Of a stretch of DNA of 48,179 nucleotides, positions 10,558-24,766 are shown one piece after another (position 1 is the stretch's first letter; every line of letters starts with the position of its first letter). The stretch spans positions 1 through 48,179 of the forward strand of contig NZ_QGKM01000022.1 of NCBI RefSeq assembly GCF_003172875.1, read 5' to 3'. The position numbers and the translations under genes were made by a program. The stretch comes from Leucothrix pacifica. Lineage in GTDB: Bacteria; Pseudomonadota; Gammaproteobacteria; Thiotrichales; Thiotrichaceae. A model generated the notes under the pieces. It was not told the DNA's origin. It saw only the letters and a list, made by a program, of their open reading frames with translations, and made no database searches.

Positions 10558-10868
10558 CTTATCTCCAAAGTACTTTTTTGCCAGCGTGATACCTAAGTTG
10601 CCATATAAATGCTATGGCAATCTTTTAAGGTAAACCAATACTAACTATTAAAAACAATAAAGTGCAAGCGATAATCGAAATCAGCATTTAGTTTAATCCT
10701 GCCACACATCACTGCGTTCACCATTAACGAATAACCCCAAGCAATATCTATACCAAGCGATTAATAATTGAGGACGTGACGGCTAGGTGTTGGTGATAAC
10801 AGATAAAAAAAGGCCAGACAAAAGTCTGGCCGAATGCTTACATGAAACTGTCAATCAACTGCTAGCGA
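10558..10868. other. Intergenic stretch between uraD and the lipoprotein gene
   Basis: About 310 bases without a convincing ORF. It holds the presumed uraD promoter at its left part and the terminator of the lipoprotein gene (10805-10831). I see no RNA gene or repeat in the remainder. Confidence 0.6.
10805..10831 (-). terminator. Rho-independent terminator of the LruC/lipoprotein operon
   Basis: A perfect 8-bp stem GGCCAGAC/GTCTGGCC (10812-10819 with 10824-10831) around a 4-base loop. On the minus strand it is followed by a T7 tract. It lies about 40 bases past the lipoprotein stop. Confidence 0.9.
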
Positions 10869-11369
10869 TTACCGCCACACAATTGCTTGCGGGCCTGCAC
10901 CACGTCGGGCCACTTTTGCACCAACTTCCAGCATGAACTCTTTGTAAACAGGTGCAATGTCGGGATCTTTAAACCAAACAACACCAATCACGCTATTTAC
11001 ATCATTGGTTACATCCATTTGTCCCGAGTAGACACCGTCAACCAGTGGCGACTGCACCGTACAACTGTCGTAGTCAATATCGTATGCGCCATCCGATTCT
11101 GTGTAGTTAGTACACAAAGACATTAACCCTTCTGACACCCTCGCCTGCTCTACATCAAAGTCGATTGCAATGGCTCGTGAGGTTGCAAAGTCAAAGTCAG
11201 CAGAGCTTTTCAAGTCAGCGGTATATTCCAGTGCCGGTGTTGTATCCGGCGTTTCAGCAACCGGTCCACCATCACTAGTGCCTGACGATGAGCCAGTCTC
11301 ACTGAGTGGGCCGCCGCCACAAGCTGCCAGCAGCACTGCCATTGAAGCTAAAGTTATTAAGTTTTTCAT
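10869..11369 (-). CDS. Putative lipoprotein
   Basis: An exported lipoprotein of about 166 residues that I cannot assign to a family. The lipobox is LLAAC, followed by a Gly/Ser/Thr-rich linker and a small globular domain with two further Cys residues (in LCTNY and DSCTV) that could form a disulphide. The ATG at 11369 is chosen because GAGGA lies 7 bases upstream; a longer frame starts at a TTG that overlaps this ribosome-binding site. It follows the LruC-domain gene by 11 bases on the same strand and shares its terminator. It may be a companion of that surface protein, by context only. Confidence 0.8.
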   Translation of the reverse strand: MKNLITLASMAVLLAACGGGPLSETGSSSGTSDGGPVAETPDTTPALEYTADLKSSADFDFATSRAIAIDFDVEQARVSEGLMSLCTNYTESDGAYDIDYDSCTVQSPLVDGVYSGQMDVTNDVNSVIGVVWFKDPDIAPVYKEFMLEVGAKVARRGAGPQAIVWR

Positions 11370-11380
11370 TATTGTTATCC

Positions 11381-13486
11381 TCAATTTTTGAACAGAATGG
11401 ATTCACCCGCATTAGAGAATGTGTACCAAGATGGATTCTCCTCGCCTTCACTTCTGACAAAGCTTGGGAATTTAGGATAGGCATGCGTTACATCACGATA
11501 CTCTTTTGGATATTTCCATTCGTTACCAACTTCCATTGCCCAAGGCAGACCGTTAGTTGTCTGGAAGAAGTGTTTATTATCCGGGTTAGAAGCATCCTGA
11601 CCCGAGCCATTCATAAATTTATAATTAAATGCTTCAGTCGCGTGATGATTCTTTAGGTGAATCTCGTAGCTACGTCCCGGTGGTGTATCAAAATGATCAC
11701 CGTGCCAGGCACCTGGTGTTGCAAACAAGAATGGATCAAAGATACCTGAAATATCAGTCTCAATAGGCTCTTTAAACGGGATCGTCAGGTTAAAGCGCAT
11801 CTGAACATCAGAGCCACAACCTTCTTCCGTGCGGTAGAACGTACAATCTTCACCAGCACTTACATAACTCCAGGTGTTATAAGCCAGAATAAAGATTGCT
11901 TCATAACGACCTGCTTCCAGCGGTGAGTAGTTCACAACTTTACGATCATTTATCGTGTAGTTGATTCCATCTTCATCAACCTGATCGCGCAGCACATCCG
12001 GTAGGCGAATACCAAAACCATTGTGGTAAGCCGCACCAACCGCCGTTAGCTGACCTGAAATGTTTACTAATGTAGCTTTTTTGTCAGTATAGAAAATTGA
12101 TGTTTTCAGATTTACGACCAAATCATTCATGTCGTAGTCACCCTCGAAAGGCCAGTTGTCTTCAAACACAACCGTCGAGTAAGACTTGCTTGATGGATAG
12201 TAATTAACCGAAGCACCTTCTACGGTGATATTGACGCTATAGTCTTCAACCTCACCATCGCTTACGCCACCTGTTGGCTCCATACCGGCACTTGACGACA
12301 AACGGAAACGAGACCATGTAGAGCCTGGCTTAGCGTCAGCAGGCACATCGATATACACAGGTTGCTTGCCAGCGTTGACACTTAAGTCAGTCACAATTTG
12401 TTCATCAGCATCAAATGTGCCGTTTTGGTCAAAGTCGACCCAGGCACTCAACACGCCAGCTGCTGATGGCTCAACCATGACAACGGCTCTATCACCTGCC
12501 TGAAGGGTAGTCGCAAACTGCACACCGTCTTCATCGTCATTTCTGTCAGACACATCATCCGACAACGGCATTGGTTTACCATCACTTTCACCGTCCACAC
12601 CGGCACCTAAATATAACGAGGTGTCACTGGTCAGACCATGACGTGCACCATTGTCTTTCAGGTATGTGCCGTAAGACTCCGGAGCATCACCAAAATCAAT
12701 ATCTACATTTGACACATCGATTACCGGTGCTAACGCACAACGAGCGCCATCATTGATACTGGATGATGGCCCTAATGCAAACAACTGCGCCGTATAGTCA
12801 CCTGCACCAATCGCAATCTTGTACAACTTACCGTCGTTATTACTACTGATGTACAGATTTTCATCAACATCAAAATAAACTGCACCGAATGTGCCCGTCA
12901 CACCAACATCAGCTAGTTGCTCAGACGTACCATTCTCAACATCAATCTTGTGCAACAGCCCGCTTCTGTCTACAGCGTAGGCATAACCATCGGTGGGGTG
13001 GAAAGCGAGATCAAATATCTTAAGTTTTAAAGTGCCGCCATCAACGACGCGAACCATTTTGTGGAAGTTTTCAGAGCTCCCGTCTAATGAAATAGCATAC
13101 AAACCGTACCTTGAACCCGCTCTGTATACATAGTAGGTATTATTGGTCAGCGACACATCACCTACATAAAAGTTGATTCCTGCAATGTTGTCGACATCTA
13201 AGTATTCAACGGTAAAGTCATCGTGGATTCTGACTGGCTTAAACTTTTCATAGCCCCAGCCATAGAGATATTGGTCGTTTGGGTTAAAACCCGTAGCGTT
13301 TACCTTGCTTTTGGTTCCCATGTCATCCTGCACCAGGCCATAATCACCCGTTACCAGATTCACACCGTAAGTCTTTGCAACTGCATCTTGAGTCAAAAAC
13401 GCCCTTGATGGACATTCAGTAAACGCATCAGCCAAAACAGACTGACTAGCGCACAAGAGTAAGCCGCTTAATAATAATCGACGCAT
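11381..13486 (-). CDS. Secreted GEVED/LruC-domain surface protein
   Basis: Exported protein of 701 residues. Domains in order: Sec signal peptide (RRLLLSGLLLCASQSVLADA); a beta-propeller-like region of the DUF6923 type (about 25-255) with repeats such as GLYAISLDG and GKLYKIAIG; a GEVED domain (about 265-425) containing DFGDAPESYGTY and the namesake SDGEVEDYSV at about 409-418; and a LruC domain (about 430-690) with the signature VFEDNWPFEGDYDMNDLVV. Several Asp-rich loops (DFDQNGTFDADE, DRNDDEDG) look like calcium sites. Such architectures are typical of large adhesive or envelope proteins, with no known enzymatic role. The ATG at 13486 has AAGG 8 bases upstream. Confidence 0.85.
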   Translation of the reverse strand: MRRLLLSGLLLCASQSVLADAFTECPSRAFLTQDAVAKTYGVNLVTGDYGLVQDDMGTKSKVNATGFNPNDQYLYGWGYEKFKPVRIHDDFTVEYLDVDNIAGINFYVGDVSLTNNTYYVYRAGSRYGLYAISLDGSSENFHKMVRVVDGGTLKLKIFDLAFHPTDGYAYAVDRSGLLHKIDVENGTSEQLADVGVTGTFGAVYFDVDENLYISSNNDGKLYKIAIGAGDYTAQLFALGPSSSINDGARCALAPVIDVSNVDIDFGDAPESYGTYLKDNGARHGLTSDTSLYLGAGVDGESDGKPMPLSDDVSDRNDDEDGVQFATTLQAGDRAVVMVEPSAAGVLSAWVDFDQNGTFDADEQIVTDLSVNAGKQPVYIDVPADAKPGSTWSRFRLSSSAGMEPTGGVSDGEVEDYSVNITVEGASVNYYPSSKSYSTVVFEDNWPFEGDYDMNDLVVNLKTSIFYTDKKATLVNISGQLTAVGAAYHNGFGIRLPDVLRDQVDEDGINYTINDRKVVNYSPLEAGRYEAIFILAYNTWSYVSAGEDCTFYRTEEGCGSDVQMRFNLTIPFKEPIETDISGIFDPFLFATPGAWHGDHFDTPPGRSYEIHLKNHHATEAFNYKFMNGSGQDASNPDNKHFFQTTNGLPWAMEVGNEWKYPKEYRDVTHAYPKFPSFVRSEGEENPSWYTFSNAGESILFKN

Positions 13487-13580: not shown

Positions 13581-14318
13581 TTATAGCATACGATGAATCC
13601 AACGAATACGCAGAAGATCCAAGAACATCGTGATTGAATCCTTTAATGGATCAACGGTTGAGCCTTCTTTATGCCTCCACTCCACGGCAACCTCTTTGAT
13701 TTTAAAGCCTGATTTTCTGGCAATGTAGAGATGCTCCACATCGAACCCAAAGCCGTAGATGCGCTGACGCATGGCTATTCTATGTGCAACTTCTCGCCGA
13801 TATGCCTTAAAACCACATTGAGTATCATTGATTCCGCTGACAGAAATCAGACGAACGGCTGTATTGAACAATAAACTCATCGCATCACGATACCAGGGTT
13901 TCTTCTCCACCACAGATGCTTCCATATTGCGTGAACCGATAACAACGTCGTAACCTGCCTCAAATTCTGGTAGCAATTTCTCAATTTCAGAGATTGGTGT
14001 GGAAAGGTCTGCATCGGTAAACAGAATGATTTGGCCGGATGCCCGCATCATGCCCCGGGCAATTGAATACCCCTTACCAACATTTTTAAGATTTTCCATC
14101 AAGGTGCCTTCATCGTGTTCATTGACCTCCTTGCCATAGATATCAATAAATTTAACGATTTCAGTGGTGAGATCATTACTACCATCATCCACTACAATCA
14201 TTTCACTGCGATAAGGCTGCTCTGACAGATAGTCCTTGATGGCATAGAGTGAGTCCGCAATTCTGCTCTGCTCATTGAAGGCGGGAATTATGACGGACAA
14301 ATAAGGCTGCTTACTCAT
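13581..14318 (-). CDS. GT2 glycosyltransferase, polyprenyl-/dolichyl-phosphate glycosyltransferase type
   Basis: Cytoplasmic GT-A glycosyltransferase of about 245 residues that likely transfers a sugar from a nucleotide donor to undecaprenyl phosphate. Visible motifs are VIIPAFNEQSRI, VVDDGSND (nucleotide binding), KNVGKGYSIARGM, the metal-binding FTDADLSTP and NDTQCGFKAYRR. Together these match the Alg5/DPM1 subfamily. There is no C-terminal transmembrane pair. The ATG at 14318 overlaps the preceding SMR gene's stop by 8 bases, so translation is coupled; a longer frame to 14363 is not needed. It is the last gene of a GT-C/SMR/SMR/GT2 cassette and probably charges the lipid carrier used by the others. 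Confidence 0.88.
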   Translation of the reverse strand: MSKQPYLSVIIPAFNEQSRIADSLYAIKDYLSEQPYRSEMIVVDDGSNDLTTEIVKFIDIYGKEVNEHDEGTLMENLKNVGKGYSIARGMMRASGQIILFTDADLSTPISEIEKLLPEFEAGYDVVIGSRNMEASVVEKKPWYRDAMSLLFNTAVRLISVSGINDTQCGFKAYRREVAHRIAMRQRIYGFGFDVEHLYIARKSGFKIKEVAVEWRHKEGSTVDPLKDSITMFLDLLRIRWIHRML

Positions 14319-14715
14319 GTTGACGACTATCTCCGGAGTATCGTGTGATAATAATAACCCCAATGATTATTAAACACACACCCAGTGTTTTTTGTGGGCT
14401 AACCGCCTCGTTTACTGCTGGCCACCACACAGAGCCTACATAAACCACGACATAGCCAAGACTGAGTAAGGGATAAGCCATGTTTAATGGAAACACCTTC
14501 AGTACTTTGATCCATAACAGCACTGCGGCAAAGTAAGCACCTATCCCTGTGGCGATCCATGCCAGTCCGGCTATTGCAGGTAACTCAACACTGGTTCTGA
14601 AGTTTTCAAGGGCAAGACTTAATGGCCCCAGAGCCAATAACCCAGCCTTCATCATTAACTGCCCACAGGCACCTGCCAATATTGAAATAATCAGATAGAC
14701 CGATACTATTCGCAT
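14311..14715 (-). CDS. SMR/EamA-type transporter, second half-flippase subunit (ArnF-like)
   Basis: About 134 residues with four hydrophobic helices, including SVYLIISILAGACGQLMMKAGL and AYPLLSLGYVVVYVGSVWW. The size and the conserved helix-3 pattern (NMAYPLLSLGYV) fit the ArnE/ArnF group of small multidrug-resistance-like proteins that flip undecaprenyl-phosphate sugars. The ATG at 14715 overlaps the upstream gene's TAA by one base (TAATG). It is followed by the GT2 gene with an 8-base overlap. The paired arrangement points to a heterodimeric flippase for the lipid-linked sugar. Substrate unknown. Confidence 0.8.
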   Translation of the reverse strand: MRIVSVYLIISILAGACGQLMMKAGLLALGPLSLALENFRTSVELPAIAGLAWIATGIGAYFAAVLLWIKVLKVFPLNMAYPLLSLGYVVVYVGSVWWPAVNEAVSPQKTLGVCLIIIGVIIITRYSGDSRQHE

Positions 14716-15083
14716 TAGCCAATTCCCATCAGGCAACTGATTCCCAACATAATCAATGCCGCACCGAACCAACGCTGCCATGGAATATGTTCTTTAAATA
14801 TCCAGCGAGCCAGCACCATCACAATAATGTAACTGAGGCTCAACATTGGATATGCCCGGCTTACCGGCATCGCACTTAGCACAACTAACCACAACAATAA
14901 CGCTAAACCGAGGCATGCCAGACTAAGTAAGACAAGCAATCCCTGCGATTGTTTCCCGGAAGTAGCCGACTCCGTGGCGCTATTTGCCGCGAACTTCTGC
15001 AATATTTGCGCACTACTAGTCAAAATAATGGAAAAAAACAATGCCATATAAACCAGATTTGCACTCAAAGCATTGTCAGTCAT
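14715..15083 (-). CDS. SMR/EamA-type transporter, first half-flippase subunit (ArnE-like)
   Basis: About 122 residues and four membrane helices. The segment AMPVSRAYPMLSLSYIIVMVLARWIFKE matches the SMR/ArnE helix-3/4 region, and its twin in the next gene has the same AYP-LS pattern. The ATG at 15083 overlaps the end of the GT-C gene by 8 bases (ATGACTGA), which decides the start over the longer frame from 15137. The two SMR genes probably form one antiparallel or asymmetric dimer that moves a polyprenyl-phosphate sugar to the periplasmic face. Confidence 0.8.
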   Translation of the reverse strand: MTDNALSANLVYMALFFSIILTSSAQILQKFAANSATESATSGKQSQGLLVLLSLACLGLALLLWLVVLSAMPVSRAYPMLSLSYIIVMVLARWIFKEHIPWQRWFGAALIMLGISCLMGIG

Positions 15084-16629
15084 CACGCCCTCTCGCCTCA
15101 TAAACCTGCATTGCTTTGCCTCTACCGAATAAGTCATCCTCCAGCAGTGATAGTCGAGGTGCTTCGGTGCGTCGATACAGACTCATCGTGCCCGTGGTCT
15201 TGCGAGTCATTACATCCGACACCTCATACAACTCTGACCAGACAGGCTGATATTTTTTTAATGCCAGCAGTTTGCGCAATTTCACATTCAATGAAGGATG
15301 CAACTGATCATTCAGAAAAACGTAGGTGAATTTTGCATCCCAAACCGCTTCAATCACATCCTGAGTTTCGTGCTTGCCATCAAGGTTATTATCCAACCAA
15401 CCGGACTCTTTGATCTGTACCTGCGGCACCACATCATTCGCTAAATAACGGAATAAATAGGGGTCTTCACTAAGGATGGTTGTTTGGTGATCGAGCTGTC
15501 CATCAATCAGTTCAAGGACAGGCGATACATCAGCATAGGCAACTTCCATTTCCTTGAGTTGCTGATAAGAAATGACTGAAAATCCAAGCACCAGCACGCT
15601 GGCAATGGATTGTTTGAGATAACGATAGTCTGACTCTTTAAGTACCATACCGATAAGCCAGGCCGCAGCCGGAATCAAAAAATACACGGCATAGACCAAG
15701 TGCTTAAACAAGGAAATCATGTTTAAAGCGTTGAGGTGGTAGGCAGCCATTGGCAGTGAAAATAAGCCCAACAACATCAACTGAATCCAGCGCGCATCAC
15801 GCCAAAATCCTCTGCCACACTCCATGGCTCGCCAGATAACAGCCAGCAACCACATTAACAGCAACATCCACAGATACTTGATTTCACTCCAGATCAGGTA
15901 CTCAAAGCTACCATTGCTATTGCCATGCACGCCTTTGATTTGAACTTGGTAGAGTTGCTGAAGTGGCTCCCAGTTCATAGCAACGTAAGCAAGTAGTGCC
16001 ACCCCGACCAGCGCTCCAAAGGTAAAACCAAGCTTAGGCGCACGCAATAAAGCCAAGCCCGCAAGCAGTGGCATATACAAAATCACCACGTATTTACTGG
16101 TGATTGCCAGACTCATCAGTACAACCGATAACAAGAGGTAGAGGTAACGACTACGATCGGTTTTTTGACAGGCCAACACCAGCGGTGCAAGTGCCAGAGA
16201 GAAGCAGGCAAAACTAATAATGTCGTAGGTTGCAAACCGACTAATAAATAACTGAATAGACTGAAGTGCCAGTAAGCTGGTCGCGATAAAAGCAATTAGA
16301 CGACTACACCACAGTACATAAGTAAACAGATACATGCCGAGTAGTGACAGTAAGCCAAAAGCGGCTGAGACTATCCGCGCACCAGTCAATCCACCCAATA
16401 ACTGTTCGCCCAGTCCCAGTAAATACCAATTTAAGTCAGAACCAAATATATAACTATAGGATGGCCAACCTTGACCCGATAGCAGGCGTTGACCCACAAA
16501 TAAGTAGTCATACTCGTCCATGTGTCCGGCATTAAAGTCGAACAGCAGACGTAAATACGCAGATACTGCTAGCAACAATGCCAGAACAGTGAGAAACAAC
16601 AACGGCAAGCGCCGTGACAAGCCAGGCAT
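15076..16629 (-). CDS. GT-C fold membrane glycosyltransferase (PMT/ArnT-like)
   Basis: A 517-residue polytopic protein with about 10-12 helices in the first 350 residues and a periplasmic C-terminal domain. The first periplasmic loop carries AGHMDEYDYLFVGQRLL, whose Asp-Glu pair fits the catalytic acidic motif of PMT/GT39/GT83 enzymes. Such enzymes take a sugar from a polyprenyl phosphate and transfer it to a lipid A, glycan or protein acceptor. It is the first gene of a tightly overlapping cassette with two SMR subunits and a GT2 synthase, which supports a lipid-linked sugar donor. No arnA/arnB-type sugar nucleotide genes are nearby, so the sugar is probably not aminoarabinose made locally. 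Confidence 0.83.
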   Translation of the reverse strand: MPGLSRRLPLLFLTVLALLLAVSAYLRLLFDFNAGHMDEYDYLFVGQRLLSGQGWPSYSYIFGSDLNWYLLGLGEQLLGGLTGARIVSAAFGLLSLLGMYLFTYVLWCSRLIAFIATSLLALQSIQLFISRFATYDIISFACFSLALAPLVLACQKTDRSRYLYLLLSVVLMSLAITSKYVVILYMPLLAGLALLRAPKLGFTFGALVGVALLAYVAMNWEPLQQLYQVQIKGVHGNSNGSFEYLIWSEIKYLWMLLLMWLLAVIWRAMECGRGFWRDARWIQLMLLGLFSLPMAAYHLNALNMISLFKHLVYAVYFLIPAAAWLIGMVLKESDYRYLKQSIASVLVLGFSVISYQQLKEMEVAYADVSPVLELIDGQLDHQTTILSEDPYLFRYLANDVVPQVQIKESGWLDNNLDGKHETQDVIEAVWDAKFTYVFLNDQLHPSLNVKLRKLLALKKYQPVWSELYEVSDVMTRKTTGTMSLYRRTEAPRLSLLEDDLFGRGKAMQVYEARGRDD

Positions 16630-22861: not shown

Positions 22862-24766
22862 TTAAGGCAGTACTTCAATCTTCACATTAGAGAAGTCGAT
22901 ACCGTTATCTGGTGTATCTTTCTTCTTAGAAGATCCAAACGTCTTACTGTTCACATGGAATGCCAACATACCAAGACTCGTCACATACAAACCAACACGG
23001 AACGCAGAACCTCGCTTAGTACCCAAGGTTTTAGGCGTTGTGAAAGTGAATGTCGCTTTTAAGGTTTGGCCATCGCTCAATGCCTGAGATGGGAATGTCG
23101 CTCGTAAACCACGACCTGAACCACCCGACACCAAGCCAAGCCTGCCTGTTGAGAACTCTAAGGCGCTGCTATTGGTTGTGGTAACCCAGTTTGCATCCAG
23201 AGCATCCGCGCCATTGTCGCGTCCACCATCCGCAAAGCTATCATCAACAACCACACCGGGCATAGCCAGAGCAATCACCTCTTTCTCTATCAATTTGATC
23301 GGCGCTGCACCTGCAGGTGCTTCTGGTGGAGGATTATGTGAGTAGGCTAACTTATAGAAAATAACCTTATCAAAGTCAGTCTCAGGCGTTGGGCTGGTGT
23401 TATTCCCTGAGTAAGCACCCGCCTTAAAGAACATGAACTCATTCTCAACACTAAAACCACTACCACTCATATCGTATGGCTCAGCAACAACCTCGCTACC
23501 ATCATCACGTATAATTTTCAGGTGAAGCATTGGAATAATTTTGTCGCCGTCTTTCTTGCCCTTTACTTCAATCTCATAGCTGAAGCGCTCATCTAAAGCG
23601 ATACCATCTTCAGGATTCTTAGCTCGATCAGAGCGAGATCCAATGACTTCTACCCACTTTTCTTTCCCCACTTCCGGGTCATGTGCGAAGTAAATCGAAC
23701 CGTATTTGTTCTGTGGCAACTTGCGATAGTAAAGACGGATCGGCTCATCATTTTTCGCGTGAATCTGACCAATCGTCACACGACCTACCTGATAAACTTT
23801 ACCCAAACGCGTCACCTGATTGACTGACAAGGTTGCTTTCAGTACACCATCAACTCCGGCTGAGGCTGCTTGAGCAGACAATGGTGCTGATGAGAATACC
23901 CAGTTGTTTTTATTGGGAATACCACCTTCCAAACGAGTTTCTATGCTGTAGTCACCACCGCGTAACATACCGCGCAACTCGGTGCGTGTGTATTTGGTAT
24001 TCTTTGATGTTTTTGCGCCAGCCGGCGTCGAACGGAACACCATGCCACCCGTTGCAGGATCAGTATAGAAATAGCGAGGATCAGTCCAGCCTTCAGCGAG
24101 TTCTTTTTCATACACACTATCTGCTTTGCCATCACCATCATCATCCGCAGGAGTAGTGATATACCAACCTAACAGATCAAAGTTTTTTCCGGGTGGACGG
24201 TCTTTATGAAGGTTAAACACACCAGTGCCTTTGCGATCAGTGACAACGGCCTTTTCAGGTTTCTTTACCGGAGTACCACAACCATAAGCAACTAGCTCGA
24301 CCATACTATTCCTGTCGTTACTTTCGTTACCGTTACTGGTTAGTTTGATAAATTGTGCTTTGGTATCGTCAAAGTCATAAGGTTCTAACTCTAACGTTGT
24401 ACCACTGGATTTCTGTTTCGGTAATATCTCAGTGTAAGCCTTGCCGTCTGCCGAAGCCTCTACCCAGAACTCTGACCAACGGCTATCACCTTTGTGCCAG
24501 GCAATACTGATAGATTTCAGTGTTTGCACCGCACCCAAATCCAATACCACTGACTTGGGGTCGCCGGTTGATTGGTTGGACCAGCGTGAATCAGGGTCAA
24601 GGTTGCTATCAATAATATTTTCCGGGCCATGAGTCTCCTCATACAAGCCATCATCAGTAGCTGAGATAATTGTCAGCGGTGCATTACCATCACAAGCAGT
24701 ATTTGCGTAAACAGAACCTGCGCACAACATCAGGGCAAGTGATGTGGCAGTCGTAATATGATTCAT
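22862..24766 (-). CDS. Secreted alginate lyase: F5/8C (discoidin) domain plus PL7 catalytic domain
   Basis: 634 residues. Order: signal peptide (1-21), a discoidin/F5-8 type C carbohydrate-binding domain (about 30-165, with SRWSNQSTGDPKSVVLDLG), a PL7 alginate lyase domain (about 180-478), a Pro/Ala linker (about 479-490) and an unassigned beta-rich C-terminal domain (about 505-634). The three PL7 signatures are present: RTELR at 261-265, QIH at 334-336 and FKAGAY at 447-452, so the catalytic His and Tyr appear intact. It should cleave alginate by beta-elimination outside the cell or in the periplasm. GGAGG precedes the ATG. No other polysaccharide-utilisation genes (oligoalginate lyase, TonB receptor) are adjacent. 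Confidence 0.93.
   Translation of the reverse strand: MNHITTATSLALMLCAGSVYANTACDGNAPLTIISATDDGLYEETHGPENIIDSNLDPDSRWSNQSTGDPKSVVLDLGAVQTLKSISIAWHKGDSRWSEFWVEASADGKAYTEILPKQKSSGTTLELEPYDFDDTKAQFIKLTSNGNESNDRNSMVELVAYGCGTPVKKPEKAVVTDRKGTGVFNLHKDRPPGKNFDLLGWYITTPADDDGDGKADSVYEKELAEGWTDPRYFYTDPATGGMVFRSTPAGAKTSKNTKYTRTELRGMLRGGDYSIETRLEGGIPNKNNWVFSSAPLSAQAASAGVDGVLKATLSVNQVTRLGKVYQVGRVTIGQIHAKNDEPIRLYYRKLPQNKYGSIYFAHDPEVGKEKWVEVIGSRSDRAKNPEDGIALDERFSYEIEVKGKKDGDKIIPMLHLKIIRDDGSEVVAEPYDMSGSGFSVENEFMFFKAGAYSGNNTSPTPETDFDKVIFYKLAYSHNPPPEAPAGAAPIKLIEKEVIALAMPGVVVDDSFADGGRDNGADALDANWVTTTNSSALEFSTGRLGLVSGGSGRGLRATFPSQALSDGQTLKATFTFTTPKTLGTKRGSAFRVGLYVTSLGMLAFHVNSKTFGSSKKKDTPDNGIDFSNVKIEVLP

Follow-up and report, generated by a model that had tools for sequence, protein, structure and literature searches.

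A 48,179-nucleotide stretch of DNA from Leucothrix pacifica, a filamentous gammaproteobacterium from the sea (positions 1 to 48,179 of contig NZ_QGKM01000022.1; hereafter, the window), carries a cassette of four overlapping genes on the minus strand, which encode a GT-C glycosyltransferase, two SMR proteins (SMR1 and SMR2), and a GT2 glycosyltransferase. We propose that these proteins probably form a three-component periplasmic system for mono-glycosylation, with a glucose-type donor and with an acceptor in a surface structure that is associated with a nearby LruC-domain protein. This proposal builds on the computed gene order, homology, ArnT fold, invariant residues, conservation, and co-occurrence with LruC. 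The genome that carries the window is 5.02 Mb. The features of the locus are:

15076..16629, minus strand: GT-C glycosyltransferase with the ArnT/PMT fold (517 amino acids; PF02366, AlphaFold2 model, invariant residues)
14715..15083, minus strand: SMR1, ArnE-like predicted flippase subunit (122 amino acids; begins at an ATG within a longer mechanical open reading frame, or ORF; ArnE NCBIfam model, family profile)
14311..14715, minus strand: SMR2, ArnF-like predicted flippase subunit (134 amino acids; ArnF NCBIfam model, family profile)
13581..14318, minus strand: GT2, of the polyprenyl-phosphate sugar synthase type (245 amino acids; PF00535, PDB matches)
11381..13486, minus strand: secreted LruC-domain protein, the conserved partner (DUF6923, GEVED, and DUF4842/LruC; start codon at 13486)
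10869..11369, minus strand: small lipoprotein, the partner of LruC (LAAC lipobox)
10812..10831, minus strand: terminator-like hairpin 3' of the lipoprotein gene (8 pairs, 6 of them G-C, then T7; a consensus match only)

A preliminary description of this DNA reported four minus-strand genes, in the order GT-C, SMR, SMR, GT2, that overlap by 1-8 bases. This was borne out: GT-C and SMR1 overlap by 8 bases (15076-15083), SMR1 and SMR2 by 1 base (14715), and SMR2 and GT2 by 8 bases (14311-14318). After GT2 there is a gap of 94 bases to the start of LruC, followed by the lipoprotein gene and then the hairpin, and these six genes may be in one transcript. (Our scan found 6 terminator-like sites overall and a mean of 6.0 in shuffled sequences, so there is no excess of such sites.) The closest named relatives of the GT-C protein are from an uncultured Leucothrix (61%) and from Leucothrix arctica (58%).

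In the proposed mechanism, GT2 would move a common hexose, most likely the glucose of UDP-glucose, onto undecaprenyl phosphate at the cytoplasmic side of the membrane; the ArnE-like and ArnF-like SMR proteins would flip the lipid-linked sugar over the inner membrane; and the ArnT/PMT-type GT-C would pass the single sugar, probably in an alpha linkage, to a periplasmic or outer-envelope acceptor. This acceptor would be in the same surface structure as LruC and the lipoprotein, and could be those proteins or a glycan that they hold. The preliminary description had already assigned loading to GT2, flipping to an ArnE/F-type pair, and transfer to an ArnT/PMT-type GT-C, and these assignments are supported by homology, fold, and invariant residues.

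The GT-C protein matches the PMT family of Pfam (PF02366) at 30.6 bits (the cut-off is 22.7). Its sequence alone had no match in PDB at E 1, and a profile of its family matched only yeast Pmt4 (E 0.89). Its AlphaFold2 model (pLDDT, the predicted local distance difference test, of 85.7; predicted TM-score of 0.86) has the GT-C fold: the best structural match is ArnT (5f15: Z 26.5, root-mean-square deviation 4.5, 427 aligned residues; 5ezm: Z 26.0). Oligosaccharyltransferases, Pmt4, and ALG12 come next, at about 2 Z units or less below ArnT (Z of about 24-25 for the oligosaccharyltransferases and Pmt4). The likeness to E. coli ArnT in sequence is weak (21% over 169 residues). The catalytic acidic pair of ArnT and PMT enzymes, on which the preliminary description had made its assignment depend, is present: D38-E39, in the first periplasmic loop, aligns with D31-E32 of E. 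coli ArnT, and D38, E39, D136, and K179 are invariant in an alignment of 15 of 15 relatives. In ArnT from Cupriavidus, D55/E56, D158, and K203 are described as active-site or sugar-contacting residues (PMC7801869). Via E. coli ArnT, these residues would correspond to D38/E39, D136, and K179. (Genomes and loci are given below by our own handles, which begin with G and L.) We disregarded a stop that had been reported in the GT-C gene of G019, since its ORF runs uninterrupted through 509 amino acids and the stop that was counted is probably its own. In G440, the GT-C gene (L056:3585-5140) is broken into two ORFs and the cassette is otherwise intact.

The two SMR proteins are adjacent, and one is nearest to ArnE and the other to ArnF. 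SMR1 matches EamA in Pfam (39.9 bits) and the NCBIfam model for ArnE (NF011625) at 74 bits, which is below the cut-off of 92; SMR2 has no match in Pfam and matches the NCBIfam model for ArnF (NF002816) at 87.9 bits, which is below the cut-off of 99. Because these scores are under the equivalog cut-offs, we consider the proteins to be ArnE/F-like and not ArnE and ArnF. The family profile for SMR1 gives 84 bits for E. coli ArnE versus 40.5 bits for ArnF, and the profile for SMR2 gives 61 bits for ArnF versus 43 bits for ArnE. Furthermore, Q26 and K30 of SMR1 are invariant in 13 of 13 sequences. Lipid-type SMR proteins are described as often being without the central glutamate (PMC9574504), and a glutamine that may be its equivalent (Q26 in SMR1 and Q19 in SMR2) lies at the corresponding part of helix 1. 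The predicted function of the pair is to flip a polyprenyl-phosphate sugar.

GT2 is a putative polyprenyl-phosphate sugar synthase, which would carry out the loading step. It matches PF00535 at 94.3 bits, and its best matches in PDB are a dolichol-phosphate mannose synthase (5mlz, E 1e-16) and ArnC (E 5e-15). The Asp motifs of a GT2 domain are present, and their residues (D44, D45, D102, and D104) are invariant in 16 of 16 sequences. We take the DTQCGFK block to resemble ALG5. A hydropathy scan identified no hydrophobic (membrane) segment in GT2, and comparison to plasmids gave only matches below 60% identity.

This enzymatic route is of a known kind. In E. coli K-12, the Arn pathway (arnBCADTEF) includes consecutive arnT, arnE, and arnF genes that overlap by 4 and 1 bases, and the cassette has the same order of GT-C, ArnE-like, and ArnF-like genes and the same 1-base overlap of the SMR genes; also, GT2 is related to the loader ArnC, to which its family profile gives 76 bits. 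Unlike the Arn pathway, the cassette has no sugar-nucleotide genes (and there is no ArnA-like protein in the genomes that were searched), it keeps T-E-F with the loader GT2 downstream and without the membrane part of ArnC, and its GT-C is only weakly alike ArnT in sequence. Gtr-type glucosylation (GtrA/GtrB/Gtr) and CsbB/GtcA/YfhO share the loader, flippase, and GT-C with the cassette, and such systems are described as adding a single sugar outside the cytoplasm (PMC11127046; PMC7389260). The cassette differs from these by its presumably heterodimeric ArnE/F-type flippase, by a GT2 without the membrane anchor that is described for GtrB (PMC11127046), and by its partners, which are LruC and the lipoprotein or a glycoside hydrolase of family GH31. 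As for the eukaryotic systems, GT2 falls in the dolichol-phosphate sugar synthase group, with DPM1 and ALG5 (5mlz, E 1e-16), and the GT-C shares its fold with the PMT/ALG6-type enzymes (Z 25.1 for Pmt4 and 13.7 for ALG6), but the carrier would be undecaprenyl phosphate and the cassette has a dedicated SMR flippase. What is new is the arrangement (an Arn-like flippase pair, an anchorless loader, and no sugar-nucleotide genes) and the partners. In the literature that we searched, we found no description of this arrangement with these partners and no paper that mentions both LruC and glycosylation.

We searched for the cassette in 63 genomes of the order, in 48 genomes of Granulosicoccaceae (the family named in the L014 record), and in 369 genomes across the class. 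Using a profile match of E ≤1e-60 to define GT2 orthologs, we found them in 12 of 63, 13 of 48, and 1 of 369 genomes, respectively, and the one genome in the class sample is the window's own. Among the 12 positive genomes of the order, five have contiguous GT-C, SMR1, SMR2, and GT2 genes; another five have a GH31 gene between GT-C and SMR1; and G015 has a split cassette, with GT-C and GH31 facing a convergent GT2-SMR2-SMR1. In Granulosicoccaceae, 12 of the 13 have the order GT-C, SMR1, SMR2, GT2 (including G440, with GT-C in two ORFs). The preliminary description would have been weakened by a gene order that was unique to this genome; instead, the order recurs both in the order Thiotrichales and in Granulosicoccaceae. 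The loader, the flippase, and the GT-C are encoded together, and this is kept in most relatives.

The LruC protein may provide a link to the cell surface. The DUF4842 domain is described as an immunoglobulin-like beta-barrel whose function is unknown (PMC9957290), and LruC of Leptospira is described as an outer-membrane protein (PMC8280789). (A structural model of LruC was poor, with a pLDDT of 56.) In the order, LruC is present in 7 of 12 GT2-positive genomes versus 1 of 51 GT2-negative genomes. The one GT2-negative genome with LruC (G001) has a completeness of 56%, and its LruC opens the contig, which cuts off the cassette side. In Granulosicoccaceae, LruC is present in 11 of 13 GT2-positive genomes versus 11 of 35 GT2-negative genomes. 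Of the 25 cassettes, 11 have LruC immediately 3' of GT2: 4 of 12 in the order (G000, G003, G005, and G006) and 7 of 13 in Granulosicoccaceae (G430-G433, G438 with a divergent LruC, G447, and G450). The neighbour of GT2 is hidden in G441 and G435, where no more than about 110 bases separate the gene from the contig end. LruC is unlinked to the cassette in G014, G015, G030, G434, G437, and G440; since it lies far from the cassette in G014, G015, and G030, linkage alone does not account for the co-occurrence. The link between LruC and the cassette is thus found in two bacterial families and holds without adjacency, which makes it stronger than was known to the preliminary description, where the LruC protein next door was a speculative acceptor.

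LruC itself comes with the lipoprotein: of the 38 LruC ORFs with at least 43% identity, 36 have a lipoprotein homolog next to them, and the other two are at contig edges. The lipoprotein has a linker that is rich in Ser/Thr. Over the first 45 residues, Ser/Thr make up 24-36% in 8 genomes of Thiotrichales and 13-24% in 7 cassette genomes of Granulosicoccaceae where a lipobox was recognised (leaving out a remnant in G445, at 40%), and they make up 13-24% in 8 lipoproteins beside the other LruC genes. Because Ser/Thr richness follows phylogeny, we did not use it as evidence. We also rejected the locus in G445 (L075), where GT-C is beside LruC without GT2 or the SMR genes, as a sign that LruC is the acceptor: the C terminus of GT-C and the N terminus of LruC are both missing, so this is a deletion remnant or an assembly fault. 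In G437, LruC (L080:7060-9182) is split into ORFs of 559 and 136 amino acids by a frameshift that is either genuine or an assembly error.

LruC also has other glycosyltransferases as neighbours. Eleven Granulosicoccaceae have LruC and no GT2, and in 8 of these, a GT4 gene is beside at least one LruC (G436, G453, G454, G460, G461, G465, G467, and G468). The other three are the remnant in G445, a divergent LruC in G469, and an LruC at a contig edge in G470. In cassette genomes, within three listed ORFs on each side of LruC, the second LruC of G438 was the sole one with a GT4 neighbour. LruC was found in 7 of the 369 genomes from across the class, and we fetched the neighbours for 5 of the 6 that are not the window's own (all but G138). 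In G305 and G400, a gene with similarity to GT4 follows the lipoprotein (tested with Pfam in G305 only); G105 has GT4 and a polysaccharide flippase; G406 has a GT2 and an export protein; and no glycan gene was recognised in G301, where Pfam was not applied to the neighbours. Because LruC and its lipoprotein attach to two unrelated types of glycosyltransferase, we lean slightly towards LruC handling a surface glycan rather than LruC or the lipoprotein being the acceptor. Three loci of Granulosicoccaceae without the cassette (L073, L074, and L085) have tandem pairs of LruC with lipoprotein genes alongside.

Within Granulosicoccaceae, the subtype of LruC sorts with the cassette. In a tree of LruC, a clade of 10 rows contains cassette genomes only (SH-aLRT, the approximate likelihood-ratio support, of 99), and its neighbour (13 rows; 99) consists of 12 rows from cassette-free genomes and one, the second LruC of G438, from a genome with the cassette. 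A smaller and more carefully built tree showed the same split, with 9 rows (at 100/99) versus 7. Two cassette-genome sequences (G435_L093 and G440_L097) are outside of both clades, and constraining all of the LruC rows from cassette genomes to one clade gave p = 0.25 (approximately unbiased test). The tree left out ten divergent or fragmentary ORFs, one each from G469, G435, G437, G438, G406, G301, and G105, with fragments of G467, G470, and G437 among the ten; G001 and G445 were also not included.

A secreted GH31 protein adjoins GT-C in 6 of the 12 cassette genomes of the order. The five that lack LruC (G019, G075, G079, G080, and G081) all have the secreted GH31 inside the cassette, and G015 has both GH31 and LruC. 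We found no relative of GH31, at E 1e-20, in G000, G003, G005, G006, G014, or G030, all of which have LruC; distant matches (27-31% identity) are present in G004, G429, G431, G432, and G434. The nearest solved relatives of this GH31 are an oligosaccharide 4-alpha-glucosyltransferase and alpha-glucosidases, and its WTDLGEP block, which presumably holds the nucleophile, aligns with WWGDLGEP of the solved relatives. The presence of GH31 in the cassette hints at alpha-glucose. Enzymes like GT2 and GT-C generally invert; if both do so here, then UDP-glucose would yield glucose in an alpha linkage, which is the type of bond cleaved or transferred by GH31 enzymes. We name glucose as the sugar mainly on this ground.

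Several observations weigh against our proposal. For the sugar, matches of GT2 to NCBIfam subfamilies are all far below the cut-off, so its sequence does not resolve the donor specificity; the nearest solved structure is of a synthase for mannose-phosphate; and because the window's genome and five other genomes with the LruC type of cassette have no GH31 relative at E 1e-20, the argument for glucose is carried over from relatives. For the flippase, the preliminary description's claim that the cassette encodes every membrane step stands in most relatives but is not universal: in G005 (L026:6497-8795) and G435 (L061:110-2403), GT-C is followed directly by GT2, with no SMR gene between them. (The assembly of G005 is 64% complete, so its SMR genes could lie elsewhere.) For LruC, none was found in 5 of 12 cassette genomes from the order or in 2 of 13 from Granulosicoccaceae (G429 and G441), and LruC is present without the cassette in the 11 of 35 Granulosicoccaceae mentioned above. 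G438 is untidy, as its cassette-side LruC is divergent (32% over 295 residues) and an LruC of the GT4 type lies elsewhere. Finally, Fisher's exact tests of LruC against the cassette (p = 1.1e-5 in the order and p = 0.0013 in Granulosicoccaceae) and against GH31 (p = 0.015 among the 12 cassette genomes of the order) ignore phylogeny.

Indeed, the association with LruC could reflect shared ancestry and hitch-hiking, with something else as the acceptor. Both the cassette and LruC have a patchy distribution that clusters by genus, the six genomes listed above have an unlinked LruC, and LruC is absent from 7 of 25 cassette genomes. But the linkage is kept in two families even though the other flanking genes differ, the unlinked LruC genes still co-occur with the cassette, and in Granulosicoccaceae the LruC subtypes divide according to the presence of the cassette, so we consider hitch-hiking to be unlikely. 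It is quite unlikely, in our view, that the cassette adds alpha-glucose to a periplasmic (osmoregulated-type) glucan and that the link to LruC is secondary. This idea arises from the Thiothrix-like genus g2, where the GH31 is inside the cassette and where a gene for an OpgC_C acyltransferase is divergent beside GT-C (L022:8581-9879, L023:8643-9869, and L042:11902-13131). However, G080 and G081 (L044 and L045; L045:3077-3355) have only a 92-amino-acid remnant of OpgC, and an OpgC query identified no such neighbour at the Leucothrix and Granulosicoccaceae loci to which it was applied (L056-L064; genes for glucan synthesis were not searched).

Alternatively, the cassette could be an Arn-type system that modifies lipid A or the core of lipopolysaccharide, with GT-C adding the sugar to lipid A or core and with LruC as a mere neighbour. 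The T-E-F order and the ArnE/ArnF-like subunits are as in E. coli, and ArnT is the best structural match of GT-C. In contrast, the membrane part at the C terminus of ArnC has no counterpart in GT2. For aminoarabinose specifically, we compared E. coli ArnA to 19 of the 25 cassette genomes (ArnB and ArnD were not searched) and found half-length matches only, at 27-31% identity for the best match per genome, as would be expected of generic formyltransferases and epimerases. Because there is no full-length ArnA-like protein in these 19 genomes, aminoarabinose is improbable, and we do not place the cassette among the aminoarabinose lipid A systems. The ArnA result bears on aminoarabinose, and lipid A could still receive another sugar. 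Overall, we consider modification of lipid A or core to be very unlikely.

We tentatively suggest, as a possibility that we doubt somewhat more than we believe, that LruC and the lipoprotein are a general envelope-glycan partner, which is paired with either the cassette or GT4 and is replaced by the cassette's GH31 in part of the Thiotrichales; the cassette would be the first to glucosylate, or to build the ligand of, the LruC surface complex, which would provide the LruC domain, whose function is unknown, with a role. The recurrence of the cassette with a secreted protein pair points to where the target should be sought, and because LruC and GH31 have near-complementary patterns, direct tests of the sugar and of the acceptor are possible. 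G005 and G435, with no SMR genes in their cassettes, are natural cases for how the donor is flipped without SMR proteins.

Elsewhere in the window (22862-24766), there is an alginate lyase (PF08787) that looks secreted and also has an F5/8 type C domain, which fits an algal epiphyte.

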